Origin: Macrotis lagotis
Taxonomy: Eukaryota > Chordata > Mammalia > Peramelemorphia > Peramelidae
Assembly: GCF_037893015.1 (NCBI RefSeq)
Contig: NC_133666.1
Location: 623,330,104 to 623,394,103 of the forward strand
Length of the DNA: 64,000 nt
Direction of reading: 5' to 3'
In this document: positions 5,625 to 56,731 of the stretch, in pieces
Layout of the letters: every line of letters starts with the position of its first letter
Position numbering within the stretch: the first letter of the stretch is position 1
Translations under genes and position numbers: made by a program
The notes under the pieces: generated by a model
What the model was told of the DNA's origin: nothing
The model's input: only the letters and a program-made list of their open reading frames with translations
The model's database searches: none

Positions 5625-5663
5625 TGTTTTTGTCCCAGGTGTCTCTGAAGTCATATTACTGTG
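5625..5663 (-). promoter_or_regulatory. 23-spacer recombination signal (3' side of D-like segment 1)
   Basis: Read on the minus strand: heptamer CACAGTA (5,663-5,657, 6 of 7 to CACAGTG), a spacer of exactly 23 bases (5,656-5,634), nonamer ACAAAAACA (5,633-5,625, 8 of 9 to ACAAAAACC). It would pair with a 12-spacer signal of a J segment. Confidence 0.7.
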
Positions 5664-5679
5664 TGTTCCCCAGTAAATC
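5664..5679 (-). other. D-like gene segment 1 (TCR mu type, 12/23 signals)
   Basis: The 16-base core reads GATTTACTGGGGAACA on the minus strand and sits between two recombination signals with exact 12 and 23 spacers. Its GG-rich centre can be read in all three frames without a stop (DLLGN, IYWGT, FTGE), as is usual for D segments. A 12-spacer signal on the 5' side and a 23-spacer on the 3' side is the arrangement of TCR beta and delta D segments; IgH D segments have 12 on both sides. It lies on the same strand as the V segment at 56 kb and about 50 kb downstream. Assignment to TCR mu is inference from the V segment and the marsupial setting. No J or C was found nearer the window's left edge. 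Confidence 0.7.
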
Positions 5680-5707
5680 CACAGTGACTCAAGGCTCACC
5701 AAAAACT
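5680..5707 (-). promoter_or_regulatory. 12-spacer recombination signal (5' side of D-like segment 1)
   Basis: On the minus strand: nonamer AGTTTTTGG (5,707-5,699, 7 of 9 to GGTTTTTGT), spacer of exactly 12 bases, perfect heptamer CACTGTG (5,686-5,680). It is the proper partner for the V segment's 23-spacer signal. The spacer shares 9 of 12 bases with that of D-like segment 2. Confidence 0.7.
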
Positions 5708-5769
5708 CTGAGAGCAATGGAGCCCTGACAACACTATAAAGGATTCACAAACCTCACCAAATCATGCCA

Positions 5770-6340
5770 AAGCATTTAAAGAAGATGCACAGGTTCCCAC
5801 AGTTGAATACACAAGCCAAACATAGGAGATATGGAACTACAAAGAGAATACACAGATCCTGACCAAGGATACACAGATGTGTGCAAGAAATGCACAAGTT
5901 CTACATAAAAAATAGAGTGAGGTGCATGGATTCCTGATAAGGCAGAGCTCTTTACAATGTATGTAGTTTCCTCATAAAGGGAACAGTCAGATCCTGAAAA
6001 TGATGCCCAAGTCCTTGATAGAAAATATAGAAGACCCTTAAAGAGAGTGCCCAAATTCTGCTGAGAATGTGCCTGAAATTCAAGTGAATGCATGCCCCTG
6101 TCTAAAGAATGCCCAGGTTCCACAGAAGAGACAAATAAGATAATGCACTTAGAGAGGTTGCAAAGATTAATAAAGAATGTTTAAAAGATGTATTGCAGAG
6201 AATACACAGGTCCAGCAAAATGTGGTGCAATATGGAAGACTCACAGGACATTCAGGGTCTTTCAGAAAATGGATGAGCCTCTTACAAAGGTTGTATAAAT
6301 TCTTTCAAAGGATACAAAGGCTCAACAGATGAGTCACCTG
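5770..6340. repeat. Decayed tandem repeat, units about 20-35 bases
   Basis: A recurring word of the form AA(G)AGAATACACAGGTCCTG appears again and again with drift: GATGCACAGGTTCCC (near 5,785), GAATACACAGATCCTG (5,844), GGATACACAGATGTG (5,866), AAATGCACAAGTTC (5,885), GATGCCCAAGTCCTT (6,002), GAATGCCCAGGTTCC (6,107), GAATACACAGGTCC (6,200). Spacing is irregular. It starts about 65 bases from the 12-spacer signal of D-like segment 1. Confidence 0.55.
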
Positions 6341-6344
6341 TTCT

Positions 6345-7040
6345 TTCAGTGCAAGCACATTTGGTCCCCAAATTCCTTGTCATTGTCAAGAGTGTTATAA
6401 AGTAGCATAGTGATCAGTGATTTTATCTAAATCCGAATAGCTCCAGCTGAAAGCTAAGAGCAGGGATTATTTTCTTTATTTTTATCTCCTCTGAATTTTC
6501 AGATTACCTTAACCCCTCTACAAAAATAGCAAAAACAACTTAAAGTTGGAATACATGGCAGCAAGATGCATTCAGAGTGAGAGCAGAATTCGTTCCCCTC
6601 TCAGTCAGAGCTGCTTTCTTCTACCCTTTTTTCCTATAAACTTTTCTGAAAGTAGGGCAAAGACTGGCCATTGTAATAACAGACAATTTCTGTCTTGGGT
6701 TTATCTCATGAGTAATTTTGAGATTAGGAGTTCATAGAGTTCTAAGGTTTTCTGAATTCTAAGAGGTGGAAACCAATCACCCAAAGGGAGATTGCCTTAA
6801 AAACATACTTTTCAGAAAAGTACAAAGGGACATGCAAATTGATTACCCTGAAGGTCATAGATTAAAGCTATGTTACCAGGGGTCAGGAGTTTTGGACCTT
6901 GCCAATACTCTATGATTTCATGTCAGCTGCTAATTTGCTGTGGGTCTGAAATAAATAGGTACTATGAGATATTTGTAGATATTTACTTCAAGGAAAGAAT
7001 CTAATGGGCTATTTGAGTGTTTTTGTTTCCTGTACACTGA
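6345..7040. other. Unclassified DNA
   Basis: No open frame with coding character and no repeat that I can name. It lies between the decayed tandem repeat and a SINE. Confidence 0.4.
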
Positions 7041-7050
7041 GTCCTTTATA

Positions 7051-7188
7051 TCTTTTTTTTTTTGCTTTTTGCAAGGCAATTGAATTAAGTGACTTGCCCA
7101 AGATCACACAGTTAGGTAATTTTTAAGTGTCTGAGGCCGGATTTGTCCAGGGCCAATGCTCTATCCACTGTGCCACCTAGCTGCCCCA
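7051..7188 (-). repeat. tRNA-derived marsupial SINE with target-site duplication
   Basis: Minus-strand SINE: the plus strand shows GCAAGGCAATTGAATTAAGTG, CACACAGTTAGG and TATCCACTGTGCCACCTAG in reverse order. It is flanked by an exact 11-base duplication AGTCCTTTATA at 7,040-7,050 and 7,189-7,199. Confidence 0.85.
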
Positions 7189-7289
7189 AGTCCTTTATAA
7201 CTTAATAAAAAATTGTCCTTATAATCTGTAAAAGTTTAAAGGAAAAATATGAATAAACAAAACAATATGACTTTAGATTACAAATAATA

Positions 7290-8070
7290 AGAGAAATACA
7301 AATTAAGATAATCCTGAGACTTTACCTCAAACCCAACAAATTAGCAAAGATGATTAAAGAGTAAAATAATCGGCATTGGATGGGTTTAAGGAGGAATGGC
7401 ATTCTAAAATATTGCTGATGGAGCTGTGAATTTGTCTAACCATACTTAGAAAATATCCTGGAATTATGTAAGAAATATCATTAAACTCTTTAAATCTTTA
7501 ACTTGTAAGATATTCTTCTGTTGGGTCTATATCCTAAGAAAGGCCAAAATAGAAATGAAGATGCCATATTCATTAAAATATTTTTGCAGCATATTTTTGT
7601 AGCAAAATAAAAACTCCACAAAAAATTAGAAATAAAATGCATGCTGGTCAGCTGAGGAGTGGTTGCAAAAATTATGGTATATGTAATTATTGTGTCACTA
7701 AGAAAAAATATGAGGGATTCAGAGAAAAACGAAAAGACATGTATTTTAGGAATGAATTGCTTCAGCATGAAGTGAATGGAAATGAGAAAGCAATGTATAT
7801 ACAATAGCTACAATAATTTAAATGGAAAAATGCTAAAAATGAATTCAAATACTATACAATTATATTGACCAATCCTGGCTGTGGAGGACATATGTGGAAA
7901 TGTATCTCCATCCTCTCTGAATAGAAACGAATAATGTTGTCATTACTTTTGAATGTAGTCATCATGTCAGGTGGTTTTTGTTGTTGTTGTTGTTGTTATT
8001 GTTGTTGTTGTTGCAAAGGAAGGTTCCTAGTTTGAGGAGAAGCAGAGTGCAATTAGAAATTCTTATGATA
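7290..8070 (+). mobile_element. Old L1 3' end
   Basis: Sense-strand L1 3' landmarks are present in order, in decayed form: AGAGAAATACAAATTAAGA, GATGGAGCTGTGAA, a GGGTCTATATCCTAAG block, and an ATGAGGGATTCAGAGAAA stretch equivalent to the C-terminal ORF2/3' UTR junction. It matches, in reverse, the better-kept element at 42,300-42,900. A TTG microsatellite lies near its end. Confidence 0.55.
7978..8013 (+). repeat. (TTG)n microsatellite
   Basis: About a dozen TTG/TTGT units with one ATT interruption. Confidence 0.85.
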
Positions 8071-8259
8071 TAAGAATAAAATCATCAATAATACCTAGAT
8101 TGAGAGATAAATGCATACAAAATGATGGATGAGGATACTTCCTTGTTTCTTCTAGCAAATTGCTTCTACAATCATCCCTTCTTGTTCTAATCTTAAATCC
8201 CTACCAACTAACTCCTCTCTGAGACCCACAAACAAGCCCATATATATCATTATTCTTAA

Positions 8260-10960
8260 AAAAATTTTCCCTAGACTGCACTCATTTTGACATTTTCTTG
8301 GTGTATAATGTAGGTGTTATATTCCAATATTTTCCAGTTTTTCCATCAGTTTTTGTCAAATAGTAGTTTCTTATGCCAAAAGCTGGATATTTGGATTTAT
8401 CAAACATTTGATTACCTCCATCTTTTTGTCTTATGTAAATATTTTGTCTTATGTACATAATTTATTCTGCTGATCCATCACTCTATTTCTTAATCAGCAT
8501 CAGATAGTATTGATGATTACTACTTTATAATATAGTTTGAAAGCTGGTATTGCTAGGTCACTTTCCTTAGCATTTTTTCCATAAATTTCCTTGACATTCT
8601 TGACCTTTTTTATTCTTCCAGATAAATTAGTTATTTTAACTAGCTTTATCAAAAATTGATATAGCACTTAATAAGTAAATTAGATTAGGCAGAATTTTCA
8701 TTTTTATTACATTGGCTCAGCTTCCTCTTAAGCAATTAATATTTTCCCAATTGTTTATATATGACTTAATTTATATGAAAATTCTTGTTAATTTGTTTTC
8801 ATATAGTTCTTGAGTTGGTCTTGGCAGATAGACTTTTAAGTAGTTTATGCAGGAATTTTTTCTGTATCTTGCTGTTGGGCATTGTTGATCAAATCAAGAA
8901 ATGTCCATGTTTTATGTGGGTTTATCTTAAATTCTACAACTTTGCCAAAGTTGTTAATTATTTCAAGTCATTTTTTAGTTGATTCTCTAGAGTTTTCTAA
9001 GTAGACTATCATCATCTGCAGAATTATAGTTTTGTTTCCTCAATGCCTGTTCTAAATCTAATGAGTGTTTTCGTAATGTTGAACTATCCCAGCCTACCCC
9101 ATATAAATCCTACCTGAAAATAATGTATTATCCTAGTAATAACTTGTATTCTCTTTGTTAAAATTTTATTTAAGATTTTTGCATTAGGGAGATTTTTTTC
9201 TATAATGTTCTCTGTTTTAACTCTCCCTGGTTTAGGTATCAGTATCATATTGGCATCTTAAAAGGAAATTGGCAGAACTCCTTCTCCTATTTTTAAATAA
9301 GTTATGTAGAATTGGAATGAATTATTCTTTAAATGTTTGGTAGAATTCATTTGTAATCCATCTGGACCTGGAGACTTTTTCTTAGGGAGTTTATTGATGA
9401 TTTCTACAATTTCTTTTTCTGAAATGGGATTATTTAAATTTATTTCCTCTTCTGTTAATCTGGATAGCTTGTATTTTTGTAAATATTGATTTGTTTCACT
9501 CAGGTTATCAAATTTATTGACACACATGTCTTTAATTTCCTCCTCATTGGTGGTAAGTTCACCCTTTTCATTTCTGATACTGGTAATTTGGCATTCTTTT
9601 ATCTTTTTTTTAAATCAAATCAACCAAAGATTTATCTATTTTATTGGTCTTTTTTCATAAAATTAACTGTTTTATTTGTCAGATCAGTGATTTTCTTGCA
9701 TTCAGTTTTATTATTCTCTTTATTTTTCAGGATTTCTAATTTGGTACTCAGTTGGATATTTTTAATTTTTCCCTTTTTCTAGTTTTTTTTTAAATTTGCT
9801 TGCCTAATTCATTGTTCTATTTTTTCCCAGTTGTTGATGTAAGAATTTAAAGAAATAAATTTCCCCTAAAGCTGCTTTTATTGCATCCCATAATTTTTGG
9901 TATGTTGTCTCATTCCTTTCATTTGCTTTACTTAAATTATTGTTTCTTTGATTTGTTCTTTGGACCCACTTATTCCTTAGGATTAGACTATTTAGTTTCC
10001 AATTAGTTATAATCTATCTTTCCACTTTCCTTTGTTGAATGTAATTTTTATTGCATTGTAACCCAAAAAGAATATGTTTAATATTTCTACCTTTCTACAT
10101 TTCATTTTGAGGGGTTTTTTCTTGCCTTAGTACATCATCAATTTTTGTGTAGGTGCCATATACTACTGAGGAAAGATATATTCCTTTCTGTTGCCATTCA
10201 GTTTTCCCCAAATATCTAGTCATATCTAACTTTTCTAATATTCTACTTACTTCCTTAGTTTCTTTCTTGTTTATTTTCTAGTTGAATTTATTGCATTCTG
10301 AGAGGGGACAGTTGAGGTCCCTTATAGTTTTGTTGCTTATTTCTTATTGTAACTCACTTAACTTCTTTAAAAATGTGGATGATGTGACACTTGGAGCATA
10401 TATGTTTAGTATTGATATTGATTCATTGTCTATGGTACCTTTTAGCAAGATAGTTTTCTTCTTTAGCTGTACTTTTTAATTGGAACTACCCCTGGTTTCT
10501 TTTTTCACTTCTGCTGAAGCATAATATATTATGCTCCAACCCCTTACCTTGATCTCTGTATGTCTCTTTATTTCAAGTATGTTTTCCTGTAAAAAAACAT
10601 ATTGTAGGATAGTTAATCCATTCTTTTATCCATTTTCATTTTATGGGAGAGTTCATTCCATTCACATTCACTGTTAAAATTACTACCTATGTATTTCCCT
10701 CCATTCTATTTTGTCCTGCTTACCCTTCCTTTCTTTTCACCTTTTCCCTCCTCACCAGGATTTTACTTCTAGGTACCATGTCCCCTGACCTGCCCTCTTT
10801 TCTGTGAGTCCCCCCCAATTTATTTAATCTCCTCCTTTCCTACTTCCCTATTGGATCAAATAGATTTCTAAATTCAACTGATTGTGTTTATGATTCCCTC
10901 TTTGAGCCATTATTGGTGAGAGTTAGGTTCAAGCAATGCCCATTTCCCACACAACCAGCT
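8260..10960 (-). mobile_element. L1 fragment, antisense, ORF2 region
   Basis: The block runs parallel to 43,200-46,450 of the larger L1 in the same orientation. Shared landmarks include GATCCATCACTCTATTTCTTA, the reverse-transcriptase N-terminal part near 9,260-9,530 (minus-strand peptide with [16 protein letters not shown] and KSPGPDG), ATTGCATTGTAACCCAAAAAG and CCATTCACATTCACTGTTA. It covers the RT N-terminus, the linker and the upstream ORF1-ORF2 spacer, but lacks ORF1 and the ORF2 C-terminus. Stops and frameshifts break it throughout. Confidence 0.8.
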
Positions 10961-10999
10961 TCCCCTCCACTTTAATAGATCTTTTATATCACTTCATGT

Positions 11000-11185
11000 G
11001 AAATAATTTACTATGTGCTAGATACTGTATGTACCAAATGAATTACAATGATTGTCATTTGATCTTCATAGCAACCCTGGGAAGTATGTACTATTATTAT
11101 TATTATTCCCATATTACACTGGAGAAAACTAAGTTAAACAGAGATAAAGTGATTTGTTCCTTACTCCTAGTAAGTTTATGAGGTC
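11000..11185 (+). repeat. MIR/CORE-SINE-like relic
   Basis: MIR-type words in order: TTTACTATGTGCTAGATACTG, TCATTTGATCTTCATAGCAACCC, a TATTATTATTATTCCCATATTACA block, GAGAAAACTAAG and AAAGTGATTTG. Confidence 0.6.
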
Positions 11186-11189
11186 ACAT

Positions 11190-11984
11190 TTTTGAAATAA
11201 GGTATTCATGATTCCAAATATTAGTTTAAACTTTAGTTTAAAAAAGCCAAGGTCATCCACTACATTGTGGACCATAGTAATTCAAAACAAGTATTACTGC
11301 TAATTGCTGCCATTTTCTCCTTGTTCTTGTTCTCTTTCATTCTCTTTCATTTTTCTTCCCCTTCTTCCTCTTTTATCACATGTGATCTTTCTATCCACAT
11401 GGGGAGTCATACCCTTATGTGTGGGTGCTCTATCCAATATTCACTCACATTTTGTAAGATATCTTGTGTTTTGGGGTGTTAAGTAAAATAATTGTTATAA
11501 ATTTTTACAATTATTCCTGGTCAAAGGTCAACTTTTCTTACCTATTGTGAGGAATGGAATGTGTCCTCCTTAGATTTTGAAAGGAAGACTTGTCCTATCT
11601 TCCTATGTCCAGAGAAAAATTGTGTCCATTATAATTTTAAAGGAGTGCTTGCCTTGCTCTCCTGGTATTTAAAATTTTAAAAAGTTATTTCCCTCAGGCA
11701 CAATGACATTGTAGAAGGATGGTAAAATTTTGTCTAGTCTTTTTATGTATATTCTATTCCCCTTGCCTTGTTGCTTTCTAAGTTTTCTGATATCTTTCAG
11801 ATTGGGATAGTCATAACTAGAATGATCTCCACCTATAAATGATTAGTAAAGCCCATATAATAAAACTTCATGTCTAATCCAATTTTGTCATATCATTTTA
11901 ACCCTATGTTTTAAGGTTCTTATGATTTTAGGGTTCACATTAAATTTGCTGTGACTTGGAGCTGAACAAATGATTTGAAAGAAA
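11190..11984. other. Unclassified DNA
   Basis: Contains C/T-rich stretches (11,310-11,370) that give leucine-, serine- and phenylalanine-rich frames without coding character. No gene or named repeat is supported. Confidence 0.4.
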
Positions 11985-12407
11985 ACAGTCATCACACTAG
12001 GAAATAGTTCCTATGAGATTGCAGTCTGGCAACCACACCTGCAGGTGCTGCAGCCACAAGTCCTAGAGAAACAGAAATAAAAAAAAGGTTTTACCCTCAA
12101 AGTCCTTGTCAGATGGTTAAACATCAGAAACTGATATATCTTTGTCAGTGAAAATAATATTAAAAGATTGAGATGACCATCTTCTTTGCCACTTCACCTT
12201 AAGGACAGGGGACCTTTTCATCTGACTTGCACTTAAAATATTCCATGTGTGATTTTTTCCTCCATTAGAATGTGAGTTCCTTGATAATTGGAACTTTCTT
12301 ATCTATCTGCTTATATTTTCAGGGCTTTACTGAGTGCTTTGCATATAGTAAACATTTAATAAATATTTTTCATTCATTTTAATTTACATCACAGACAATT
12401 CAATCCA
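11985..12407 (+). repeat. Local duplicate A (includes an L2 3' end)
   Basis: Closely matches 19,846-20,257 along its whole length, starting at ACAGTCATCACACTAGG and ending at CAATTCAATCCA. The distal part (12,260-12,380) is an L2 3' end (GTGAGTTCCTTGATAATTGG ... TTTAATAAATATTTTT). The copy near 20 kb lacks about a dozen bases near 12,165. Unlike the distant copy, this one lies immediately beside duplicate B. Confidence 0.85.
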
Positions 12408-12422
12408 AATAGAGGGTTCTCC

Positions 12423-12745
12423 TAAGTAAAGACTGTGTGACCATTGTTTGGTATGTTACAGGCAGAATTCCCTTCTCAGAAACAGCACAGAGTAGATGAC
12501 CTCCAAGCATTCTTGATGCTGATTCCTTAAGGAGAACAAATAGGTTCTTATAATTGTTGTCATGGGTTCAGTATTCCTCTGTGAGGATCACTACTTGACC
12601 CAGGAATGCAGGTGTAAAAAGAAAATTAGAAATTTGTTAGAAAGAAAGTGATAGAGAAGTTAAGAAATTTAAAAAATGTGACTTGGATTGCTAATTCATC
12701 TTGGCAGGCCAGCTGCCAAGTCAAGCAGAAATCTAGAAGCTAGTA

Positions 12746-12781
<36 letters not shown>
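12423..12781 (-). repeat. Local duplicate B, LTR-like sequence
   Basis: Closely matches 17,532-17,926 and ends, like it, in a GA tract. Read on the minus strand it holds an AATAAA-like site followed by CTGCATTCCTGGGTCAAGTAG, resembling an LTR end also seen on the plus strand near 20,960-21,040. The homology runs about 150 bases past the presumed LTR edge in both copies, so this is a duplicated segment and not simply a pair of LTRs. It is a fossil with no coding capacity. Confidence 0.6.
12749..12781 (+). repeat. (GA)n microsatellite
   Basis: About 16 GA units at the end of duplicate B. The paralogous tract at 17,869-17,926 is nearly twice as long. Confidence 0.95.
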
Positions 12782-12782
<1 letters not shown>

Positions 12783-16410: not shown

Positions 16411-16593
16411 GACATTGGTATAAAAACTTGCAGTGGAAAGAGGTGCAGTAACTTGGGATACGTACCTATTATCATGGTGATTATAGGATTTATCTTCCCT
16501 TGGAAGTAAGGAGGTGATCAGGGGAGATGTTATTTAGCCTTAAGGGCCTACTCAGAAATTTGAAGCAATCTCATTAAAATAAAAGAGGAGGGA

Positions 16594-18215: not shown

Positions 18216-18254
18216 GTTTTTTATATTGAATCCATATGAGAACAGATCACAGTG
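18216..18254 (-). promoter_or_regulatory. Candidate 23-spacer recombination signal (3' side of D-like segment 3)
   Basis: On the minus strand: heptamer CACTGTG (18,254-18,248; differs from CACAGTG only at positions 4 and 5, CAC intact), 23-base spacer, nonamer ATAAAAAAC (18,224-18,216, 7 of 9). Confidence 0.4.
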
Positions 18255-18271
18255 TGATTCCCAACCACTGA
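18255..18271 (-). other. D-like gene segment 3 (candidate)
   Basis: The 17-base core reads TCAGTGGTTGGGAATCA on the minus strand, with a G-rich centre like a D segment. A perfect heptamer lies on its 5' side and an altered one on its 3' side. Spacer lengths are exactly 12 and 23, in the same polarity as segments 1 and 2. The 5' nonamer is poor, so this may be a decayed segment or a chance match. The 12-base spacer shares 8 of 12 bases with that of segment 1. Confidence 0.42.
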
Positions 18272-18299
18272 CACAGTGATTCATGGTTTACTCTAAACC
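18272..18299 (-). promoter_or_regulatory. Candidate 12-spacer recombination signal (5' side of D-like segment 3)
   Basis: On the minus strand: nonamer GGTTTAGAG (18,299-18,291, only 5 of 9), 12-base spacer, perfect heptamer CACTGTG (18,278-18,272). Confidence 0.4.
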
Positions 18300-26579: not shown

Positions 26580-26618
26580 GGGTTTTGCCCCATATGCTCA
26601 AGAGGTTGCATTATTGTG
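26580..26618 (-). promoter_or_regulatory. 23-spacer recombination signal (3' side of D-like segment 2)
   Basis: On the minus strand: heptamer CACAATA (26,618-26,612, 5 of 7, CACA intact), spacer of exactly 23 bases, nonamer GCAAAACCC (26,588-26,580, 7 of 9). Confidence 0.55.
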
Positions 26619-26633
26619 TCTGTAGACTAGTCA
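26619..26633 (-). other. D-like gene segment 2 (TCR mu type, 12/23 signals)
   Basis: The 15-base core reads TGACTAGTCTACAGA on the minus strand, between a 12-spacer and a 23-spacer signal of the same polarity as segment 1. The immediate downstream DNA resembles that of segment 1 (shared CAACTGACT beside the 3' nonamer; CTAGAGCCA near 26,445 and 5,520), and the same old repeat lies about 0.3 kb further on. I read the two as paralogues of a duplicated D region. One reading frame of the core contains stops and the 3' heptamer is weak, so it may be little used or decayed. Confidence 0.58.
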
Positions 26634-26661
26634 CACAGTGACAAATGGCTCAAGATAAACC
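26634..26661 (-). promoter_or_regulatory. 12-spacer recombination signal (5' side of D-like segment 2)
   Basis: On the minus strand: nonamer GGTTTATCT (26,661-26,653, 7 of 9), spacer of exactly 12 bases, perfect heptamer CACTGTG (26,640-26,634). Confidence 0.6.
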
Positions 26662-29749: not shown

Positions 29750-30808
29750 TATCTGAAGATCAAACCTTCTGTGGAGCTCTGGCCATTCCAACAGGAACAT
29801 TTGAAATTCCCCTGGTTCATTGAAAGTCCATCTTTTTCCCTGGAAGAGGACATTCAGCCTTGCTGGGTAGTTGATTCTTGACTGCATTCTAAGCTCTTTT
29901 GCCTTCCGGTATATTATATTCCAAGCCCTACAAGCTTCCAATGTAGTTGCTGCTAAGTCCTATGTGATCCTGACTGCAGCTTCACGATATTTCAACTTCT
30001 GGCTGCTTGTAATATTTTCTCTTTGACTTGGGAGTTCTCGAACTTGGCTATAATATTCCTAGGGGTTGGTTTTTTGGGATCTCTTTCTCGGGGGAATTGG
30101 TGGATTCCCTCCATTTCTATTTTGTCCTCTGCTTCTAGAATATCAGGGAAATTTTCCTGTAGTAATTCTTTGAAAATGATGTCAAGGCTCTTTTCCTGAT
30201 CATGACTTTCAGGTATTCCAATAATTTTTAAATTATCTTTCCTAAGTCTGTTTTCCATATCAGTTGTTTTTTCAATGAGATATTTCACATTTTCTTCTAA
30301 TTTTTCATTTTTTTGGTTTTGAAGTATTGATTCCTGATTTCTGGTAAATTCATCAGTCTCCCTGAATTCTATTCTTTGTCTGAAGGATTTGTTCTCCTCA
30401 GAGAGTTTTCTTGTCTCTTTTTCCATCTGGCCAGTTTTTCTTTTTAAAGCATTCTTCTCCTCAATAACTTTTTGAACTGTTTTATCCATTTGACCTAAGC
30501 TGGTTTTTAGCATGCTATTTTCTTCAGAATTTTTTTGCATTTCCTTGAATAGGCTTCTGACTTCATTTCCATGTTTTTCCTGCATCTCTCTCATTTCTTT
30601 TCCCAGTTTTTCTTCTAACTCCCTCATTTGATTTTCAAAGTGTTTTTTGAGCTCTGTCATAGCCTGAGCCCAATTTCTGTTTTTCTTGGAGTCTTTAGAT
30701 GCAGGAGCTTGTGCTTCCTCTTCTTCAGACTGAGTATTTTGATCCTTCTTGGGCTCATATGCAAAATATTTCTCAATGGTGTTCCTCTTTTTTTCTCAGC
30801 TTGCTCAT
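29750..30808 (-). pseudogene. L1 ORF1-like gene of the minus half-L1
   Basis: The ATG at 30,808-30,806 (MSK) opens a frame that shifts after about seven codons. The main surviving frame (30,660-29,992) has a long heptad-rich coiled coil (MREMQEKHGNEVRSLFKEM, IEEKNALKRKTGQMEKETRK), then an RRM-like core with NLKIIGIPESHDQEKSLDII and a C-terminal stretch ending IIAKFENSQVKEKILQAAR. The last part (29,941-29,747; NVLFQGKRWTF, FLLEWPEL) is in another frame. L1 ORF1p is a trimeric RNA-binding protein; this copy is frameshifted and unlikely to make it. The 3' part carries the typical 'LFQGKRWTF' end of L1 ORF1. Confidence 0.8.
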
Positions 30809-32324: not shown

Positions 32325-32901
<577 letters not shown>

Positions 32902-34365: not shown

Positions 34366-35445
34366 ATGAGTAAGCAGAGAAAAAAGAAGAACACCATTGA
34401 GAAATACTTTGCCTGTGATCCCAAGAAGGATCAAAACACTCAATCTGAAGATGAGCAAGTCCAAGCTCCTACATCTAAAGACTCCAAGAAAAACAGAAAT
34501 TGGGCTCAGGCTATGGCAAAGCTCAAAAAAAGCCTTTGAAAATCAAGTGAGGGAGGTAGAAGAAAAATTGGGAAAGGAAATGAGAGAGATGCAGGAAAAA
34601 CATGAAAAAGAGGTCAGTAGCTTAGTCAAGGAGATCCAAAAAAATTGCTGAAGAAAATAGTATGTTAAAAACCAGCTTAGGTCAAATGGATAAAATGGTT
34701 CAAAAAGTTATTGAGGAGAAGAATGCTTTAAAAAGCAGAATTGGCCAGATGGAAAAAGAGATAAAAAAGCTCTCTGAGGAAAACAAATCCTTCAGACAAA
34801 GAATGGAACTGAGGGAGTTTGCTGATTTTACAAGAAATCAGGACACAATACTTCAAAACCAAAAGCATGAAAAATTAGAAGAAAATGTGAAACATCTCAT
34901 TGAAAAAACAACTGATATGGAAAACAGATTTAGGAAAGATAATTTAAAAATTATTGGAATACCTGAAAGTCATGATCAGGAAAAGAGCCTTGACATCATT
35001 TTCAAAGAATTACTACAGGAAAATTGCCCAGATATCCTAGAAGCAGAGGGCAAAAATAGAAATTGAGAGAATCCACTGATCTCCCCAAGAAAGAGATCCA
35101 AAAAAAACCAATACCCAGGAATATAGCCAAGTTCCAGAACTCCCAAGTCAAAGAGAAAATATTACAAGCAGCCAGAAGGACACATTTCAAATACCATGGA
35201 GCTGCAATCAGGATAACACAGGACTTAGCAGCAACTACATTAAAAGTTCATAGGGCTTGGAATATAATATTCTGGAAAGCAAAAGAGCTTAGAATGCAAC
35301 CGAGAATCAACCACCCAGCAAAGCTGAATGTCTTCTTCCAGGGAAAAATATGGACTTTCAATGATCCAGGGAAATATTAAATGTTCCTGTTGGAATGATT
35401 AGAGCTGAACAGAAGGTTTGATCTTCAAATACAGGAGGACTCAGG
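34366..35445 (+). pseudogene. L1 ORF1-like gene of the plus half-L1
   Basis: ATG at 34,366 begins MSKQRKKKNTIEKYFACDPK. The frame then shifts near 34,530, and at least two more breaks separate the pieces seen at 34,397-34,651, 34,662-35,066 and 35,063-35,380. Coiled-coil heptads fill the first part (EEKLGKEMREMQEKHEKEV), followed by NLKIIGIPESHDQEKSLDII (RRM region) and an end with NVFFQGKIWTFNDPG. It parallels the minus copy along its whole length. No ORF2 follows. Function in the intact family is RNA binding and chaperoning during L1 retroposition; this copy is broken. Confidence 0.8.
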
Positions 35446-42244: not shown

Positions 42245-45200
42245 TCACTCCCATGTTGCTGTTAGGGTGTACAGTGTTTTTCTGGTTCTGCTCATCTCAC
42301 TCAGCATCAGTTCATGCAAATCCCTCCAGGTTTCCCTGAAATCCCATCCCTCCTGGTTTTTAATAGAACAATAGTGTTCCATGACATACATATACCACAG
42401 TTTGCTAAACCATTCCCCAATTGAAGGACGTTTACTGGATTTCCAATTCTTTGCCACCACAAACAAGGCTGCTATAAATATTTTTGTACAAGTAATGTTT
42501 TTACTCTTTTTCCTCATCTCTTCAGGGTATAGACCCAGTAGTGGTATTGCTGGGTCAAAGGGTATGTACATTTTTGGTGCCCTTTAGGCATAGTTCCAAA
42601 TAGCTCTCCAGAAGGGTTGGATGAGTTCACAGCTCCACCAACAGTGTAATAGTGTCCCAGGTTTCCCACATCCCTTCCAACAATGATCATTATCCTTCCT
42701 GGTCATACTGGCCAATCTGAGAGGTGTGAAGTGGTACCTCAGCGAAGCTTTAATTTGCATTTCTCTAATAATTAATGATTTAGAGTATTTTGTCATATGG
42801 CTATGGATTGCTTTGATCTCCTCATCTGTAAATTACCTTTACATATCCTTTGACCATTTGTCAATTGGGGAATGCCTTTTTGTTTTAAAAATATGACTCA
42901 GTTCTCTGTATATTTTAGAAATGAGTCCTTTGTCAGAATTATTAGTTGTAAAGATTGTTTCCCAGTTTACTACTTTTCTTTTGATCTTGATTACATTGGT
43001 TTTATCTGTGCAAAAACTTTTTAATTTAATTTAATGTAATCGAAATCATCTAATTGGTTTTTAATGATGTTCTCCAACTCTTCATTAGTCATAAACAGTT
43101 CCCCTTTCCATAGATCTGACAGGTAGACTAGTCCTTGATCTTCTAATTTGCTTATAATATTGTTTTTTATGTCTATGCCCTGTAACCATTTGGATCTTAT
43201 CTTAGTAAAGGGTGTGAGGTGTTGGTCTAATCTAAGTTTCTTCCATATTAACTTCCAACTATCCCAGCAGTTTTTATCAAAGAGGGAGTTTTTATCCCAA
43301 TGGCTAGACTCTTTGGGTTTATCAAACAGCAGATTACTATAATCCTCTCCTGCTTTTACACCTAGTCTATTCCACTGGTCCACCACTCTATTTCTTAGCC
43401 AATACCAAACAGGTTTGATGACTGATGCTTTATAATATAATTTTAGATCGGGTAGTGCTAAGCCACCATCGTTTGCATTTTTTTTTCATTAAGCTCCTGG
43501 CAATTCTTGACTTTTTATTTCTCCATATGAATTTACTTACAATTTTTTCTCATTCATTAAAGTAATTTTTTGGAATTTTGATTGGTAGGGCACTAAACAG
43601 ATAGTTTAGTTTTGGTAGAATTGTCATTTTTATTATATTAGCTCTACCTATCAATGAGCAGTTGATATTTGCCCAGTTATTTAAATCTGATTTAATTTGT
43701 GTGAGAAGTGTTTTATAATTGTTTTCAAAGATTTTGAGTCTGTCTTGGCAAATAGACTCCCAAGTATTTTACACTGTCTGAGGTGGCTTTGAATGGGATT
43801 TCTCTTTCTAGCTCTTCCTGCTGTTTCTTGCTTGTCATATATAGGAACATTGAGGATTTATGGGGGTTTATTTTATAACCTTCAACTTTGCTAAAATTGG
43901 TAATTGTTTCCAGTAGTTTTTTAGATGATTTCTTGGGATTCTCTAGGTAGACCATCATGTCATCTGCAAAGAGTGAGAGTTTTGTCTCTTCCTTCCCAAT
44001 TCTAATTCCTTTAATTTCTTTTTCTTCTCTAATTGCTGATGCTAACATTTCTAATACAATATTGAATAGTAGTGGTGATAATGGGCACCCATGTTTAACC
44101 CCTGATCTTACTGGGAATGCCTCTAGCCTCTCCCCATTGAGTATAATGCTTGTTGATGGTTTCAGATAGATACTGCTAATTATTTTAAGGAACAGTCCAT
44201 TTATTCCTACACTCTCTAGTGTTTTTAATAGGAATGGATGCTGTATCTTGTCAAAAGCTTTTTCAGCATCTATTGATATGATCATATGGTTTCTGATAGG
44301 TTTGTTATGGATATAATTGAGTATACTAACAGTTTTCCTAATATTGAACGAACCCTGCATTCCTGGAATCAATCCTACTTGATCATAATGTATTATCCTA
44401 TTGATGACTTGTTGTAGTCGTTTTGCTAAGATTTTATTTAGGATTTTTGCATCTATATTCATCAGGGAAATAGGTCTATAATTTTCTTTCTCTGTTTCAA
44501 CTCTTCCTGGTTTAGGTAATAGTACCATATTGGTTTCATAGAAAGAGTTAGGCAGAGTTCCATCTTTCCCTATTTTTCCAAAGAGTTTATATAGGATTGG
44601 AACCAATTGTTCCTTAAATGTTTGGTAGAATTCACTTGTGAATCCTTCAGGCCCTGGAGATTTTTTTTACAGAGTTCAATAATGGCTTGTTGAGTTTCTT
44701 TTTCTGAGATAGGGTTGTTCAGGTATTTAATTTCTTCTTCATTTAACCTGGGCAACTTATATTTTTGTAAATATTCCTCCATTTCACTTAGATTATCAAA
44801 TTTATTGGCATAGAGATGGGCAAAACAATTTTGAATTATTACTTTAATTTCCTCCTCATTGGTGGTGAGTTCACCTTTTTCATTTATAATAGTAGCAATT
44901 TGGTTTTCTTCTTTCTTTTTTTTAATCAAATTGACCAGAGGTTTATCAATTTTATTGGTTTTTTCATAATACCAACTTTTGTTTTTATTTATTAATTCAA
45001 AAGTTTTTTGGCTTTCAATTTTATTAATTTCTAATTTGATTTTTAAAATTTCTAATTTGGTATTTGATTGGGGATTTTTGATTTGTTCTTTCTCTGATTT
45101 TTTTAGTTCCATGCTTAGTTCATTTATTTCCTCTTTCTCCAATTTATTCATATAAGCATTTAGAGCTATAATATATCCCCTGAGAGTTGCTTTGAAGGAA

Positions 45201-46112
45201 TCCCATGGGTTTTGGTATGTTGTTTCATTATTATCATTATCTAGGATAAAATGGTTAATTCTTTCTATAGTTTGTTTTTTGGTCCACTCATTTTTTTAAG
45301 ATGAGGTTATTTAGTTTTCAATTTGCTTTGGGTCTATATCTCCTTGGCCCAGTATTGCATATGAATTTTATTGCATTGTGATCTGAGAAAGAAGTATTCA
45401 CTATTTCTGCCTTTCTGCAGTTGATCATTAGGTTTTTACGTCCTAGTACATGGTCAATTTTTGTATAAGTTCCATATACTGCAAAGAAAAAGGTATATTC
45501 CTTCCTATCCCCATTCAGTTTCCTCCATAAGTCTACCATATCTAATTTTTCTAACAATCTATTCATCACCCTAATTTTTTTCTTGTTTTATGATTTGATT
45601 TATCTAGATCTGATAGTGGGAGGTTGAGGTCTCCTACTAGTAGAGTTTTGCTGTCTATGTCTTCCTGTAATTCTTTCAGCTTCTCCTCCAAGAATTTGGA
45701 TGCTGTCCCACTGGGTGCATATATATTCAATATTGAAATGACTTTATTGTCTATGGCACCTTTTAGGAGGATAAAGTTTCCTTCCTTATCTCTTTTAACG
45801 CTATCTATTTTTGCTGCTGCTTTGTCTGAGATAAGGATTGCTACCCCTGCTTTTTTTTACTTCAGCTGAAGCAAAATATATTTTGCTCCAACCTTTTACC
45901 TTTACTCTATATGTATGTCTCTGCTTCAAATGAGTTTCTTGTAAGCAGCATATTGTGGGATTCCGGTTTTTAATCCACTCTGCTATTTGCTTACATTTTA
46001 AGGGAGAGTTCATCCCATTCACATTCAAGGTTATGATTACTAATTCTTTATTGCCCTCTGTGCTATCTTCCCTCTGTTTGTATTTTTCCCCCTTCCCCCC
46101 CCTTTTATCCAT
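42245..46112 (-). pseudogene. L1 ORF2 (endonuclease-reverse transcriptase), frameshifted
   Basis: Order on the minus strand: endonuclease start at 46,112 (LNVNGMNSPLKCKQIAEWI, TICCLQETHL), endonuclease end with SDHNAIKF near 45,400, linker and RT lead-in at 45,151-44,570 ([23 protein letters not shown]), RT at 44,606-43,725 ([59 protein letters not shown]), then the C-terminal region (WKGCGKPGTLLHCWW) at 42,796-42,584 and IPFDPAIPLLGLYPEE at 42,571. The catalytic box is FADD. The frames are split into at least six pieces. The intact protein nicks the target and copies the RNA there. Confidence 0.9.
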
Positions 46113-46828
46113 ATTCCCCAGTATTTTGTTTTTGAATACTACCCCCTTCAGTGTGTTTGCCCTCCTATATCACACCCTCCCCTTTCTTTCCCTTTTCCCT
46201 GTTCCCTTCCCTTCCTTTTGTTATTTCCCCTTATTTCCTCCACTCCCCTTCCCTTTCTCTGTCCCCCCTCCCCTTTTCCCCTTTTAATTCTTGAAAGGTT
46301 AGATGTTTTATAAGTTAAATGCATATGTGTAGGTTGACTTTAAGCCAAGTCTGATGAGAAGAAGATTCAGGTGTTTCTCCTCTACTCCCTTCTTCCCCTC
46401 TACTACCATAGGTTTTTTGTACCTCTTAGTGTAATGAGATTTGTCCCATTCAATCCCCTCCCTCCTCCCGTCTCTTTCCTGTCCCCCTTTTTATTTGGGT
46501 AGTGTATTTTTTTGTTAGATCATTCTATCTAAGTCATAGAAAATTCTGAGTGTCTGTCACTTCTAGTTTAGTATATTCTGTTGAATAGAGTCAAAATTCC
46601 TGAGAGTTATTAGAGTCTTTCTCCCCAGTGGAGTTAAAGCCAGTTACATCCTATTAGATATCAGTCTCATGGATAGGTCATGGATGTCCATAATTTCTGG
46701 CTAGGTATATTCTCTCTGTTAGAGTTACATTTCTCAGGATTTATGAGAGTCTCTACCCTTCCCCCATGGTGGGATATAGCCAGTTTCAACTTGCTGGATT
46801 GCATTTTTTTCCTTTTACTGCCCCCTTT

Positions 46829-50448: not shown

Positions 50449-50499
50449 ATTGATATTGTACTTCAATAGAAGCTGCAGAGATAATAGTATTAATAATAG

Positions 50500-50705
50500 C
50501 TAGCATCACAATTACATCTTACACAGCATCTTACAAATATTTTCTTAGCTGACCCTCAAAACAATTCCTGGAGGGAAGTGTTGCTATGATCTCCATTAAG
50601 TGACTAGCCCCAGGGTCACACAGCTAATAAGTATCTATTAAATACAGAATTTAATTTGAGGTATTCTTGACTCCAAGTGCAGTACTCTATTCCTTGTGCT
50701 TCCTA
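50500..50705 (+). repeat. MIR-like relic
   Basis: TTACACAGCATCTTACAAATAT, CCTCAAAACAATTCCTGG, AAGTGACTAGCCCCAGGGTCAC and GACTCCAAGTGCAG occur in MIR order. Confidence 0.7.
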
Positions 50706-50879
50706 TCTGTCTCAGTCATTCTTGACCTTTCCTTTTCCCTCATCTCCCCACAGTGAACCTATGACTTTGTATTATTGAATCCACATCTACAACATCTCTC
50801 CTCTGGCTCTTTCTCTGCATGCAAGCAAACTGCCACCAACAACAATCATTACTATAGCTTCCTAATCTGTCTTTTTGTT

Positions 50880-51960
50880 TCTGATCTCCCTCACCAATCT
50901 AAACTCAGGCCAGCTGCCAGACTAATCCTCCTAAATCCCAGGGCTGACCAATTCACATCCTTAATCAAGTAACTTCAGTAACTCCTTATGACCTTTTTTG
51001 AAACTAGGTCTTATTTTTTGAAACCAGAGCTCCACATTTCGCACAAACTGGAAGTCAAATGGCCAATTTGAAGGTCTGAATTCACTACTAATTGACAGGG
51101 AAGTTTTGGCTAGCTCCATTTCTTATCTGGAATGGGTCACCCTTCTTAGGGTAGTCTAGTGTCCCTCCCTCTCTGGGACTCATCATATTGATGGCAGACT
51201 TAGTGTGATGGCATTTTATCAGCTTAGCACAGTGCAATTAATAAATTAATTAAGTCATCAGCCTCCTCAGTAGGAGGTAGTATAGGTACATTCTACAACA
51301 CCCAGCCTTCCCCATTGACTTTCAAATAAAATATAAATTCCTTACCTTGACATTTAAGTCTCTCCACTATATGACTCTATTTTACCTTTCTAGACTTGTC
51401 TTACATTGGTTCGCTTCATGCATTCTTCATCCTAATAAACTGTTCTACTTGCTGGTCTCTGAATTTGATGTTCTATTTATCACAACCATGGCTTTGCCCA
51501 AACTCTTAGCCATGCCTGTGATGGTCTTCATCCTCACCTCTACCTCAAAGGAACTGTAGCTTTCTTCAACAATCTTTTCTTTTCTTTTTTTTTTATGTTT
51601 TTGCAAGGCAAATGGGGTTAAGTGGCTTGCCCAAGGCCACACAGCTAGGTAATTATTAAGTGTCTGAGACTGGATTTGAACCCAGGTACTGCTGACTCCA
51701 GGGCCAGTGTTTTATCCACTGCACCACTTAGCTGCCCCTAACAATCTTTTCAACTCCTATGGGAAGTCTTTCTTGATCCTGCTAGTGGTAAAAACTCTCT
51801 CCTTCCTTTGTTTTTTTTATATACTGACTTTTATACATCAAGGTTGTACCCTTCATAGAATGGAAACTTCTTGGGGACAGTGTCTATTTTTAATTTGTTG
51901 CTTTTATGACTCTGCAATCTTGAACATGGGAGATATTCAATAAACACTTGCTTACTGAAC
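50880..51960 (+). repeat. L2 3' region, interrupted by a SINE
   Basis: L2 landmarks in order: CAGCTGCCAGACTAATCCTCC, TTCCTTACCTTGACATTTAAG, CTTCATCCTAATAAACTG, GGAAGTCTTTCTTGATCC, GGGACAGTGTCTA and the 3' end ATTCAATAAACACTTGCTTAC. A SINE splits it at 51,580. Confidence 0.7.
51580..51739 (-). repeat. tRNA-derived SINE with target-site duplication
   Basis: Minus-strand SINE with a clean T-run (tail) at its left. Exact duplication AACAATCTTTTC at 51,568-51,579 and 51,740-51,751. Confidence 0.95.
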
Positions 51961-52039
51961 TAAGATACAACAGGTGCACAAATAGTGAGGCAAAATTAAA
52001 TTGAGAAGGTAATGAAGGCCTCAGTTCTCAAATATATAA

Positions 52040-53095
52040 CAAACTATGTCAAATTTATAAAAATAAGAGCCATTCCTCAACTGAAAAATGATCAAACTAA
52101 CAGGCAATTTTCAGATGAAGTAATGAAAGCTCTCTATAGTCATAGGAAAAAATGCTCTGATTATAGAGAATTCAAATTAAAAAAATTCTGAGGTACCACC
52201 CCATACCTATAAGATTGGTTAATAAAACAGAAAAGGGAAATGACAAATGTTGGAGGCAATGTGGGAAAACTGAGATGCTAATTCATTATTAGTGAAGTTT
52301 TACATTGATTCAATTATTTTGAAGAGCAATTTGGCATTATTCTTTTAAAGGACATAAAATTCATGCATACCCTTTGACATAGCAATACCACTGGTAGACC
52401 TGTAGTTTTTTTTAAAAGATCTATATGTACAAAAATATTTATATACATTCTTTTTATGATGGTAAAGAATTGCAAATTGAGGGGATGTACATCAATCAGG
52501 GGATGGTTGAACAAGTGTGGTATATTATTGTGGTATACATGATTCTCATTACAATTGTACAATAAGAAATGATAAGCAAACTGATCTCAGAAATATCAAG
52601 ACTTAAATGAACTGATACAAAGTGAAATGAGCAGAACCAGGAGAACATTGTTTACAGTAATAGCAATATTGAACAATGATCAACTATGAATGACTTTGCT
52701 ATTCTCAGCAACACAATGATCTGAGACAACTAAAAAGGACTTGTGATGAAAAGTGCTCCCATGTCCAGGAAAAAAAATGGTTGGAGTCTGAATGTAGATT
52801 GAAGTATACTTTTTTAAACTTTACTTTTTCTTCTTGGGTGGCTTTTGATTTTGTTTTCTGCTTTTTGTTTTTGGTCTGTGTTTTCTTTTACAATACAACT
52901 AAGAAGGTGTGTTTTTCATGACTGAATGTATATAATCTATATCAAATGTTTGTCTTCCAAATGAGGAATGGAAATAATCTGGAACTCAAAAATTTTAAAA
53001 ACAATAATTTAAAAACAAATAATAAAGAAAATATTATCTTTTATATGTAACTGAAAATAAAATATTAAATATATTTTAAAACTTAAATTGAGAAG
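52040..53095 (+). mobile_element. L1 3' end, sense
   Basis: Typical L1 3' words in order: CATTCCTCAACTGAAAAATGATC, GAGGTACCACCCCATACC, GGAGCTGT-equivalent region, CCTTTGACATAGCAATACCACTG, GGTTGAACAAGTGTGGTATA, GCAGAACCAGGAGAACATTG and an A-rich end. Truncated at the 5' side and decayed. Confidence 0.85.
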
Positions 53096-53204
53096 ATGTA
53101 GAACATTGCCAAGAAGGTAGATCCAAAAATGAATCTCCCCATGACAGGTGATACCCATTCTCAGCCTTGAAGGGAGTCACAGAAATTGGGATCACATCAC
53201 TTCA

Positions 53205-53330
53205 CTATTCGGAACCTTTCATTTACAGCACATTGCCTAAAAGATAAACCCCAAACTCTTTAGCTTGGCATTCAAAGCCCTCTATATTATGAGCTTGTCT
53301 TAATTCTAAATTCAGTTTTTTTATTTCTAC
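53205..53330 (+). repeat. L2-like fragment
   Basis: CATTGCCTAAAAGATAAACCCC and GCTTGGCATTCAAAGCCCTC match the L2 3' region word set. Confidence 0.5.
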
Positions 53331-53836
53331 AAATACTGAGTATATTTTTAATATTTGCAAAGCCTCAAGTGTTGATACTGAAAGAAGATCCAGAAATGAA
53401 TTAGACATGGTCTCTGCCTTCCAGTAGCTCATTTGAGAGAATAAGACATGGGTTAAATAAAATTAAAATACAAGGCAGAAAGAGATAAGGGTCTTAAGAG
53501 AGCATGAATATTGAGGAAGGGGAAATAAGATGAGAGAAGGTCATGGTATATATTGAATGGATTGTCATGGAATAAATCTAAGTCAGAGAGACAGATAGTA
53601 GGACATTGTAACAATCCATGTGAATCATGGAAATCTGGATTAAGGTGAAGATCTTGGAAGTGGAGAGAATGTGGGAATGAAGTGTTAAATTATATTCCTT
53701 TGTACAAGGTCCTCATGGTTCACATAGACTGAGTCTCTGGTCATTATAAGAGAACATAAGAGTTCTCATAAGGAACTCATAAGAGTTCCGTGTTCAGTTT
53801 ACAGGAGATAATTCCTTCTTTAGAATGAAATGGGCA

Positions 53837-53988
53837 AGGGGAGGCTAGGTGGTGTAGTGGATAAAGCACTGGCCTTGTAGTGAAGAGTACCTGGGTTCAA
53901 ATCCGGTCTCAGACACTTAATAATTACCTAGCTGTGTGGCCTTGGGCAAGCCACTTAACCACATTTGCCTTGCAAAAACCTTAAAAAA
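53837..53988 (+). repeat. tRNA-derived SINE with target-site duplication
   Basis: GGGGAGGCTAGGTGGTGTAG to an A-rich tail. ATGAAATGGGCA (53,825-53,836) is repeated with one change at 53,989-54,000. Confidence 0.95.
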
Positions 53989-54539
53989 ATGAAACGGGCA
54001 CTAAGGGAGCACTACAGAATATACAGAGGAGAGCATCATAAGAAAGACAGTTATGAGTTTGGAGACTGGAACAGTCAGAATGGGCTAAAGTTGTCAATAA
54101 AGACCTGCCAGAGTAAATTAGATTTAAGCAAGACTTGAAAATGCAATGATAGATGGAGGAGGGAGGTAATAGATAGGAGGTCATACCAGATAGGATAAGA
54201 ACTGTGGGAACATTCACAAATGGTTTAGGGGGATAATGATCTATCACATTGAGCTGGAGCTGAGAGTCAAGAGAAGACCTATGAGTAAGAAGGTAAGAGA
54301 GAGAAAAACTTATAGATGGTTTTTCTAAATTAACCTATGGAGTTTTGTCATTATCCTAAAGGAGTTGCTACAGATTTGTGAGGCTTAAGTAAAATGAATA
54401 ATCTAGGTCTTAGAATTGTTGGTTTGGGGAACTGCCTTTAAGTTTTTTTGCTCCTTCAATTCCCATTTAAATCAATATTTATCCCTTTTTATTCTCTAAG
54501 AGTCAGAGGCAATGTCCCTTCCCCTTCCCTCCTATCACC

Positions 54540-54730
54540 CTAGGGGCTTCTTTGAAATTATTATGAAAATGTTTTGTATGACTGCACGTGTAAAGCCTAT
54601 ATTGAATTGCTTATCTTGTAAATGAGGGTTAAAGGAAGGGAGAAAATTTGGAACTCAACATTTTAAATGACATGAACATTTAAAAAATAATATTAAAAGT
54701 TGTTTTTACATGTTACTGGGGAAAAACAAA
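54540..54730 (+). mobile_element. L1 extreme 3' end
   Basis: TGTAAAGCCTATATTGAATTGC, GGAGAAAATTTGGAACTCAA and GTTTTTACATGTTACTGGGG match the 3' UTR end of L1 on the sense strand. Strongly truncated. Confidence 0.65.
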
Positions 54731-54734
54731 GCAA

Positions 54735-55965
54735 GAAAGTCTTGGTTCATAGGTGATAGGTAGTATAGAGGGGAACCAGAGCTGGGTTGTGGGATCAAGG
54801 GGGTCATAACTGTTGCCAGTAACCCTGAAGAGGGAACCAACCATTCTTCTACAATCTACACCACTGAATTCTGAAGCTACCAGAAAAGCTGCAAGGAGTT
54901 TTCACTGATGCTACTAAATAGTTGGCTCTAATCATATGGCATGTTTAGAATGTGACAGACATTGGCAGAGGGATAGAAGATAATTAGAAAAGACTTGGGG
55001 GATCTCGATGCCCTAGAGAAGCACATCTACAAGAGTCAAGTGGCTCTGGGAATCTTTCCTTGTACTCCTTGTTTCCAGGTCTTATATAGCATGCTGGACT
55101 GTAGAACTGTCCAAGGTCTGCATCACAGAATAGCAAAATTACAACACAAATTTTTAAAAGGCTATGTCCTTGACAGCATCGTTGGAGCCTTTCCCTATCC
55201 AGATTCAAATTAGAACTTAACAGAACTTGAAAAGGAGGATTCTTGAGATCTTACAAGCCAACAAATGATCAATGCATTCTCTAGACCTGGTCTAAGAGAC
55301 TCAGGTTATAAGGCCTACAGGTAGGAGATTCAGAAACAGATCTGAATTTCTACTGCCTAAGTTTGGTAACTCCAGTCAAATCTTTGTCATGTGTAAACCA
55401 GTTTTCTCATCTGTAAAATGGACATATACTTTATATTTATACCTCCTATATCAGGACAGTCTTCCTGAGGGCAGGAACAAAGCAACTATTTCTGTGTTTC
55501 TTAGAGTTAAGAATTTGAACTCCTCAGTGAGAAAGAGAATTATTTCTACTCTATACCAAGCTAAGAGTCCCCCAGAAGTGAGCTTGGACTCACTCCTCCT
55601 GCTTAGCTCCAAACTGAACCAATCCAGGATCAGGTACATAGCAGAAAGGTTGTGTTCTCATAGTATTTCAGGTGAATTCTTCCTGCTCCCAGTCATTGAT
55701 TGTTTTCCTAGGAGTCAGCCCTAGGGACCTGATTCCAGGAGGTGTGACCGCCTGGCACCTTAAGGAAGGATAGAGGAGGTCCTCAGCTGAGGGTGAAACA
55801 GTGGCTGGAGTCACAGGAGTGTGGAAGAACAGTGGAGACTAGGAGAAAAGCCCTCTCTTACTTTAGCACACACACATATAATCTGTTTTCCCATTTTCCC
55901 CTCCTGTTCCCCACCCACACACAGAAAATACAACACAGCCCAGTAGCAGCATCTGGGTCTCTAAT
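54735..55965. other. Unclassified DNA just downstream of the V segment
   Basis: No repeat recognised. I looked on the minus strand for D signals, a J FGxG motif with donor, or a further V exon and found none. Confidence 0.45.
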
Positions 55966-55969
55966 CCCA

Positions 55970-56008
55970 GGTTTTTGTCAAGGCCTCTGCCTGGACCCCA
56001 GCAGAGTG
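55970..56008 (-). promoter_or_regulatory. 23-spacer recombination signal of the V segment
   Basis: On the minus strand: heptamer CACTCTG (56,008-56,002; CAC and final TG match, positions 4 and 5 differ), spacer of exactly 23 bases (56,001-55,979), perfect nonamer ACAAAAACC (55,978-55,970). A 23-spacer V signal pairs with the 12-spacer 5' signals of the D-like segments. Confidence 0.9.
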
Positions 56009-56667
56009 AGTCTGGCACAATAGTATTTGCCAGAGTCCTCCTTTCGTAGCTGGTCCAGTTTCAGAGTGACAGTTTTGGCCCCATTGTCCCTGGTGATGGA
56101 AGCCCTGCCCTTAACCTGGGAGCTGTACTCTTTATTACTGCCAGTTTTGGAGCTGATGCTGGCCACTAGCTCCCTGCGCCTCCCAGTTGGATTCCAGTGC
56201 CAAGACATGGCAAACTCCTTGAAATTAAAGCTGGAAGCACTGCAGGTCAGGGTCACAGACTGGCCCTCGTGTGTCACCTTGCCTCCCGTTTCCTTGAGTA
56301 GAACCTGGGCCCAGGAACCTGTAAAGGACATACCAAGAAGTTGAAGCCCCATATAAAGCCTCCATGAGAAAGGGAGCTTAGGGACCCTGGCAGAGACATC
56401 TGGCTACTAATTAGAGATTCCAATCCCAACCCAGTTTATCAGGGAGAGGAGATCAAGAAGAAGCAAAGCTTCATGGCCCCTTACCTCCAGAGAAGAGAGA
56501 ACAGGTTGGAGATAGAGAAATCTGGAAGCTAATTAGAGTCTCAACCCCATTCAGAATATGAGGAAGAGGAAAGAAGCAGTATGGACAGGACAGATACCTG
56601 GGAGAATGGAGAGGAGCATCCCCAGGAGATAAATCCTGGCAACTGTGGTGAGGGTACTGGCAGACAT
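56009..56667 (-). CDS. Germline V gene segment, VH-like, probably TCR mu V
   Basis: Two exons on the minus strand. The leader exon is 56,667-56,598 (starts MSAST, hydrophobic IYLLGMLLSILP) with donor CAG|GTATCT; the intron is 279 bases; acceptor TTACAG opens the V exon 56,318-56,009. The mature chain begins near AQVLLKETGG. It has VTLTC (Cys23), AMSWHW (Trp36), VKGRASITRDN in framework 3, KEDSGKYYC (Cys104, IMGT) and ends AR before the recombination signal. No stop or frameshift. Framework 2 departs from antibody VH: by VH alignment V37H, R38W, Q39N, L45R and W47L, in the surface that normally meets VL. Such changes fit an unpaired V domain as known for the outer domain of marsupial TCR mu. 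With 12/23 D-like segments on the same strand I infer Vmu. An IgH V or delta-type VH is less likely. Confidence 0.82.
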
Positions 56668-56723
56668 GCTGCTAAAACTGCAGGACCTCGTCTGCAACTG
56701 TGGTCCAGGGCTGATAACCTAGG

Positions 56724-56731
56724 TATATATA
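56724..56731 (-). promoter_or_regulatory. TATA box of the V segment
   Basis: TATATATA, read CACCTATATATACCT on the minus strand, about 57 bases upstream of the leader ATG. I found no perfect octamer (ATGCAAAT) close upstream, unlike many antibody V promoters. Confidence 0.65.

Follow-up and report, generated by a model that had tools for sequence, protein, structure and literature searches.

To which antigen-receptor locus do a variable (V) segment and three diversity (D) segments belong that lie along one strand of a 64,000-nucleotide stretch of the Macrotis lagotis genome (C9:623330104-623394103, in an assembly of 3.66 Gb; hereafter the window)? We conclude that the window almost certainly covers the 5' portion of a complete T cell receptor (TCR) mu (TRM) cluster of marsupial type, about 74 kb long and located on the minus strand. 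To our knowledge, placental mammals have no TCR mu receptor. In support of the assignment to TCR mu, the exons that define this receptor, a V exon joined to its joining (J) segment in the germline (Vj) and a constant (C) exon, lie 19-20 kb downstream of the last D segment of the window. The order of the cluster is V - D1 - D2 - D3 - D4 - J - Vj - C, of which V and D1 to D3 are inside the window, while D4, J, Vj and C are outside. Along the minus strand, the recombination signal sequences (RSS), named by spacer length, run V-23, 12-D-23 four times and 12-J, followed by in-frame Vj and C exons. A preliminary description of the window had proposed either a TCR mu cluster or the remnants of several. 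Its first part holds. Its second part was rejected: the V and D segments belong to a single cluster and are collinear with a tandem duplicate located 150-151 kb upstream, which comprises V, four Ds, J, Vj and C and is 80-88% identical over most aligned pieces.

The V segment and the exons downstream of the window

The window had been described as carrying a V segment like those of immunoglobulin heavy chains (VH-like) with a 23-spacer signal. An intact V segment with its 23-RSS was indeed found on the minus strand, with the following parts (positions in the window):

56726..56731, minus strand: TATATA box, 64 bp upstream of the leader ATG
56598..56667, minus strand: TRMV leader exon MSASTLTTVARIYLLGMLLSILP, followed by a GT donor; 95.8% identical to the leader of the upstream cluster
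56009..56318, minus strand: TRMV exon 2, open, encoding a VH-like V domain; preceded by an AG acceptor, with a GT..AG intron from the leader
55970..56008, minus strand: 23-RSS of V, heptamer CACTCTG, 23-bp spacer and perfect nonamer ACAAAAACC

A TATATA box is also present upstream of the duplicate V. In the window, the box begins at 56731 and the 23-RSS of the last D segment ends at 5625, in exact agreement with the span first given for the array (5625..56731).

The V domain was compared with PDB chains (best 60 of 8084 matched; domain-level scores from 4 alignments). Its best single-domain match in those alignments is a TCR mu chain (7k0z, 158.0 bits, followed by 7k0x, 156.7 bits), with 73 out of 102 residues identical in each case. 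Antibody VH domains obtained 62.7-74.7 bits in the alignments, and single-domain nanobody chains about 90 bits among the matches listed. The top whole-chain score among these matches belongs to a nanobody chain, with three V domains summing to 202.9 bits. We take 7k0x, 7k0z and 7l15, named T cell receptor mu chain in PDB, to be opossum chains. This fits PMC7615758.

Within its own genome, the V exon retrieved, besides itself, four other C9 segments (87, 72, 57 and 53% identity), and the whole set lies on the minus strand, from 623.386 to 623.839 Mb. The VHs found at C1:438.2-439.7 Mb, labelled IGH by similarity, are at most 44% identical to it; weaker still are the matches on C4 and elsewhere. 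In a maximum likelihood tree of 11 domains, the V of the window falls in a group (support 96/93) that also holds the V of the upstream cluster, another V from C9 and two TCR mu Vs from opossum; a human VH, a nanobody and one VH from C1 fall apart from it. The tool warned that the branches separating Vj domains from V domains are long. The preliminary description had pointed to a best match with an IGH V, in synteny with IGH, as the observation that would speak against TCR mu; instead, TCR mu and other TRM Vs come first among the domain matches, and the IGH-like VHs are on C1. The heptamer CACTCTG is common to the three C9 TRMV whose RSS was read (window, upstream cluster and C9:623743992), and the one C1 IGH-like VH read carries CACAGTG.

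The cluster was continued in DNA fetched below the window, where the following elements were located (C9 coordinates):

C9:623317094-623317146, minus strand: J segment QWENFGPGTEVTVLP, 13 kb past the window edge; 12-RSS of moderate score (12.1)
C9:623316222-623316575, minus strand: Vj exon, V and J joined in the germline in one open exon with an FGPGT J motif
C9:623315343-623315606, minus strand: C exon, C1-set domain (Pfam, 38.7 bits)
C9:623314903-623314971, minus strand: connecting-peptide exon, with a cysteine
C9:623312919-623313031, minus strand: coding part of the transmembrane exon, TCR-type, with R and K

The J segment displays an FGxG motif, a 12-RSS and a splice donor. From J to the stop codon, joining the exons at GT/AG sites gives a single open frame of 283 residues, in which the J-Vj joint reads P-L-E-K-T, as the opossum chain does there. 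The Vj and C exons together match a TCR mu chain with 323.5 bits in one stretch of 206 residues. For the V, Vj and C domains, Pfam returned V-set, V-set and C1-set, respectively.

D segments and their recombination signals

Three D-like cores, each preceded by a 12-RSS and followed by a 23-RSS, had been reported from the window. All three were recovered on the minus strand in V-to-D order, and a fourth lies just beyond the edge. Scores were obtained with an approximate RSS matrix:

26619..26633, minus strand: D1, core TGACTAGTCTACAGA; 12-RSS 26634-26661, 23-RSS 26580-26618; pair score 35.3
18255..18271, minus strand: D2, core TCAGTGGTTGGGAATCA; 12-RSS 18272-18299, 23-RSS 18216-18254; pair score 31.1
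5664..5679, minus strand: D3, core GATTTACTGGGGAACA; 12-RSS 5680-5707, 23-RSS 5625-5663; pair score 44.3
C9:623329650-623329658, minus strand: D4, core ATGGGGAAA, 445 bp past the window edge; pair score 44.8, the highest of all

As a random control, we used 20 sequences generated from the dinucleotide frequencies of the window, read on both strands (40 strands). The best 12/23 pair scored at most 19.1 in 39 of them and 34.6 in the remaining one. Taken alone, D2 (31.1) is therefore not beyond this control, since one random strand exceeded it. A control on real DNA (332 kb, both strands, four spacer combinations) placed all pairs scoring 22 or more, some of them in a shifted register, on only eight positions. 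Four of these are the Ds of the cluster of the window, and the other four are their collinear counterparts in the duplicate, whose order is unchanged; D1, D2 and D3 each have their counterpart there. One further 12/23 pair on the minus strand falls just below the cut-off of 22 (21.4). Of the comparison with background that the preliminary description had proposed, two of the three D pairs came out clearly above it, the third (D2) standing out only through its position and its counterpart in the duplicate. Chance RSS matches were on these grounds rejected as the source of the D calls. When the D1 region (351 bp) was searched against the genome, two full-length places were found, in the cluster of the window and in the next one, with nine short matches (36-53 bp) elsewhere.

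An isolated 23-RSS-like site (CACTGTG, score 16.6) was also observed at 63424-63462 on the minus strand, and the V searches found no V exon before it. As shuffled strands often reach a score of 16.6, this site is probably due to chance.

The wider locus, the duplicate and the competing readings

A genome-wide search with the C domain identified five stop-free places (623.315, 623.465, 623.701, 623.761 and 623.801 Mb) and two with a stop inside (623.406 and 623.558 Mb), all on the minus strand of C9. Weak matches were also obtained on C4 (32%) and C1 (31%). A Vj-like match at 623.802 Mb carries a stop. All V and C matches of the TRM kind are on the minus strand of C9, between 623.31 and 623.84 Mb, and the IGH-type VHs are on C1; the tandem array is thus unlinked to the VHs assigned to IGH by similarity. 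The locus is made up of at least five V-bearing clusters and at least two relics over about 0.52 Mb, in a single orientation. The number of clusters is a lower bound, because the search scores only the best candidates.

Decayed Vj and C exons with stops lie between the two cluster copies, about 12 kb beyond the upper end of the window, and another such pair lies above the second copy (C9:623406422-623407690 and C9:623557789-623559091, minus strand). They share 43-58% identity with the Vj and C of the live copies, and are perhaps relics of an older TRM class. On the 3' side, at 1.0 Mb, a V-set exon of the MOG family was found; the comparison with PDB, which covered one of two MOG/BTN-like exons, gave MOG as the best match (111.2 bits), followed by CD276 (100.9 bits) and BTNL8 (98.2 bits), a similarity at the level of the family. 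Zinc finger genes on the 5' side are a further mark of marsupial TRM loci. MOG flanks TRM at its 3' end in both opossum and Tasmanian devil (PMC7615758), and the position of this putative MOG-family exon is consistent with the marsupial synteny.

Compared between the two clusters, V, with 92 of 103 residues identical, has a ratio of nonsynonymous to synonymous substitution rates (dN/dS) of 0.29, and Vj, with 106 of 119, one of 0.25. At the D cores, 41 of 54 positions agree, a lower share than in their heptamers and nonamers. Overall, this pattern is compatible with function, although it is no proof of it.

Several points weigh against a functional TCR mu cluster. The heptamers of V (CACTCTG) and of J (CACGGTA in the direction away from J) both depart from the consensus, and D1 has stops in two of its three frames. 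A 23-RSS-like match is present within the Vj exon itself, on the opposite strand; it is weak (13.3), yet it is the best of the RSS-like matches, all of them weak, in this exon and its surroundings (about 300-400 bases). The C domain has a dN/dS of 1.11 (64 of 89 residues identical), and the conservation of the RSS is not significantly above that of the flanks (heptamers and nonamers of the four Ds, 118/128 vs. 1815/2061; Fisher P = 0.098). The two heptamers, the C ratio and the RSS conservation, together with the decayed Vj and C exons adjoining the cluster, would favour a cluster of the right family that is silent or unable to recombine and has been kept by recent duplication only. We consider this unlikely: every exon found is open and has GT/AG splice sites, V and Vj have a dN/dS of 0.25-0.29, and CACTCTG, being the same in all three TRMV whose RSS was read, looks like the normal form of the family and no lesion.

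The VH-like V domain and the 12-bp signals on one side of the Ds speak for an IGH locus, or for an orphon of IGH that carries D segments. The Ds of IGH have a 12-RSS on both sides, whereas those described here are 12/23. Moreover, the V is closest to the TRM Vs, the IGH-like VHs on C1 do not exceed 44% identity, and the next exons are the Vj and C of TCR mu; an IGH origin is thus extremely improbable. Just as improbable is a TCR delta locus of the VH-delta type, as found in monotremes, birds and frogs, although such loci use VH-like Vs and the C of TCR mu is closest to that of TCR delta (PMC7615758). The germline-joined Vj exon argues against it, as does the score of Vj and C, 323.5 bits with TCR mu compared with about 107 for whole TCR delta chains.

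For the TCR mu cluster, the following sequence of events can be proposed. In thymocytes, RAG would join V to J through one to four Ds, following the 12/23 rule. A given D could be linked to the next D as well as to V or J, direct V-J joining would be possible too, and a diverse outer domain would result. Splicing would connect the rearranged exon to the invariant Vj, and Vj in turn to C, to give a chain with two V domains and one C domain. By analogy with the opossum, where a structure displays the pairing of TCR mu with TCR gamma (PMC7615758), this chain would pair with TCR gamma on gamma-mu T cells.

D segment number among TRM loci and other elements of the window

In kind, the locus is ordinary for a marsupial, and its four D segments are its single unusual trait. 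According to PMC2275272 and PMC7615758, the TRM locus of the opossum (Monodelphis domestica) likewise consists of tandem [V-D-J-Vj-C] clusters interspersed with partial ones; its V is VH-like, its Vj is joined in the germline and MOG is at the 3' end. The V, Vj and C described here match the TCR mu chains 7k0x, 7k0z and 7l15. The two species differ in cluster number, with six complete and two partial clusters in the opossum (PMC7615758) and at least five V-bearing clusters and at least two decayed partial ones here. They also differ in D number, since opossum clusters have, in the passages compared, two or three Ds, while four are present both in the cluster of the window and in its duplicate. 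In PMC2275272, clusters 5 and 7, which it groups with cluster 3, are credited with three TRMD, and clusters 4, 6 and 8, which it groups with cluster 2, with two; yet it calls clusters 6 and 8 partial and without D.

The Tasmanian devil also has a row of clusters, partial ones included, with MOG at the 3' end and lineage-specific duplications; its nine clusters (three partial) extend over about 1 Mb (PMC7615758). Here, at least seven clusters, two of them decayed, span about 0.5 Mb. TRMC genes of the devil are listed in PMC4662006, and PMC9618407 covers TCR loci, mu included, in koala, woylie, wombat, antechinus, numbat and platypus. In the platypus, TRM has several Ds, and the chain has a V1-Dn-J1 outer domain, a second V domain and C as well; its second V domain is assembled from V2 and J2 (PMC7615758), while here V and the FGPGT J motif are within one exon. 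A TCR mu of the monotreme type, with the second V unjoined in the germline, was ruled out, as Vj is joined here.

In the published text compared (that of PMC7615758 and passages of PMC2275272, PMC4662006 and PMC9618407), no D count above three was found. We see about an even chance that this lineage builds the outer domain of TCR mu from clusters of four separate Ds, that V-D-D-D-D-J joints and CDR3s (complementarity-determining regions 3) longer and more varied than in the opossum are possible, and that the four-D layout predates the duplication of the two clusters. With the V, D, J, Vj and C of one cluster placed exactly, within a complete locus of a chromosome-scale assembly, repertoire work becomes possible and the numbers of Ds used by different lineages can be compared. 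In addition, a TCR mu cluster can be recognised in raw sequence from a window that holds only V and D.

Other elements are found between the V and D segments. LINE-1 pieces with reverse transcriptase and L1 RNA-binding domains (Pfam) are located at 43725-44666 and 29992-30795, both on the minus strand, and LINE-1 look-alikes were noticed by eye in the list of open reading frames at 44570-46169 (minus strand) and 34370-35380 (plus strand). Between V and D1, an open reading frame of 174 amino acids (32342-32866, plus strand) contains ubiquitin and ribosomal S27a domains, and is perhaps a retrocopy of RPS27A.

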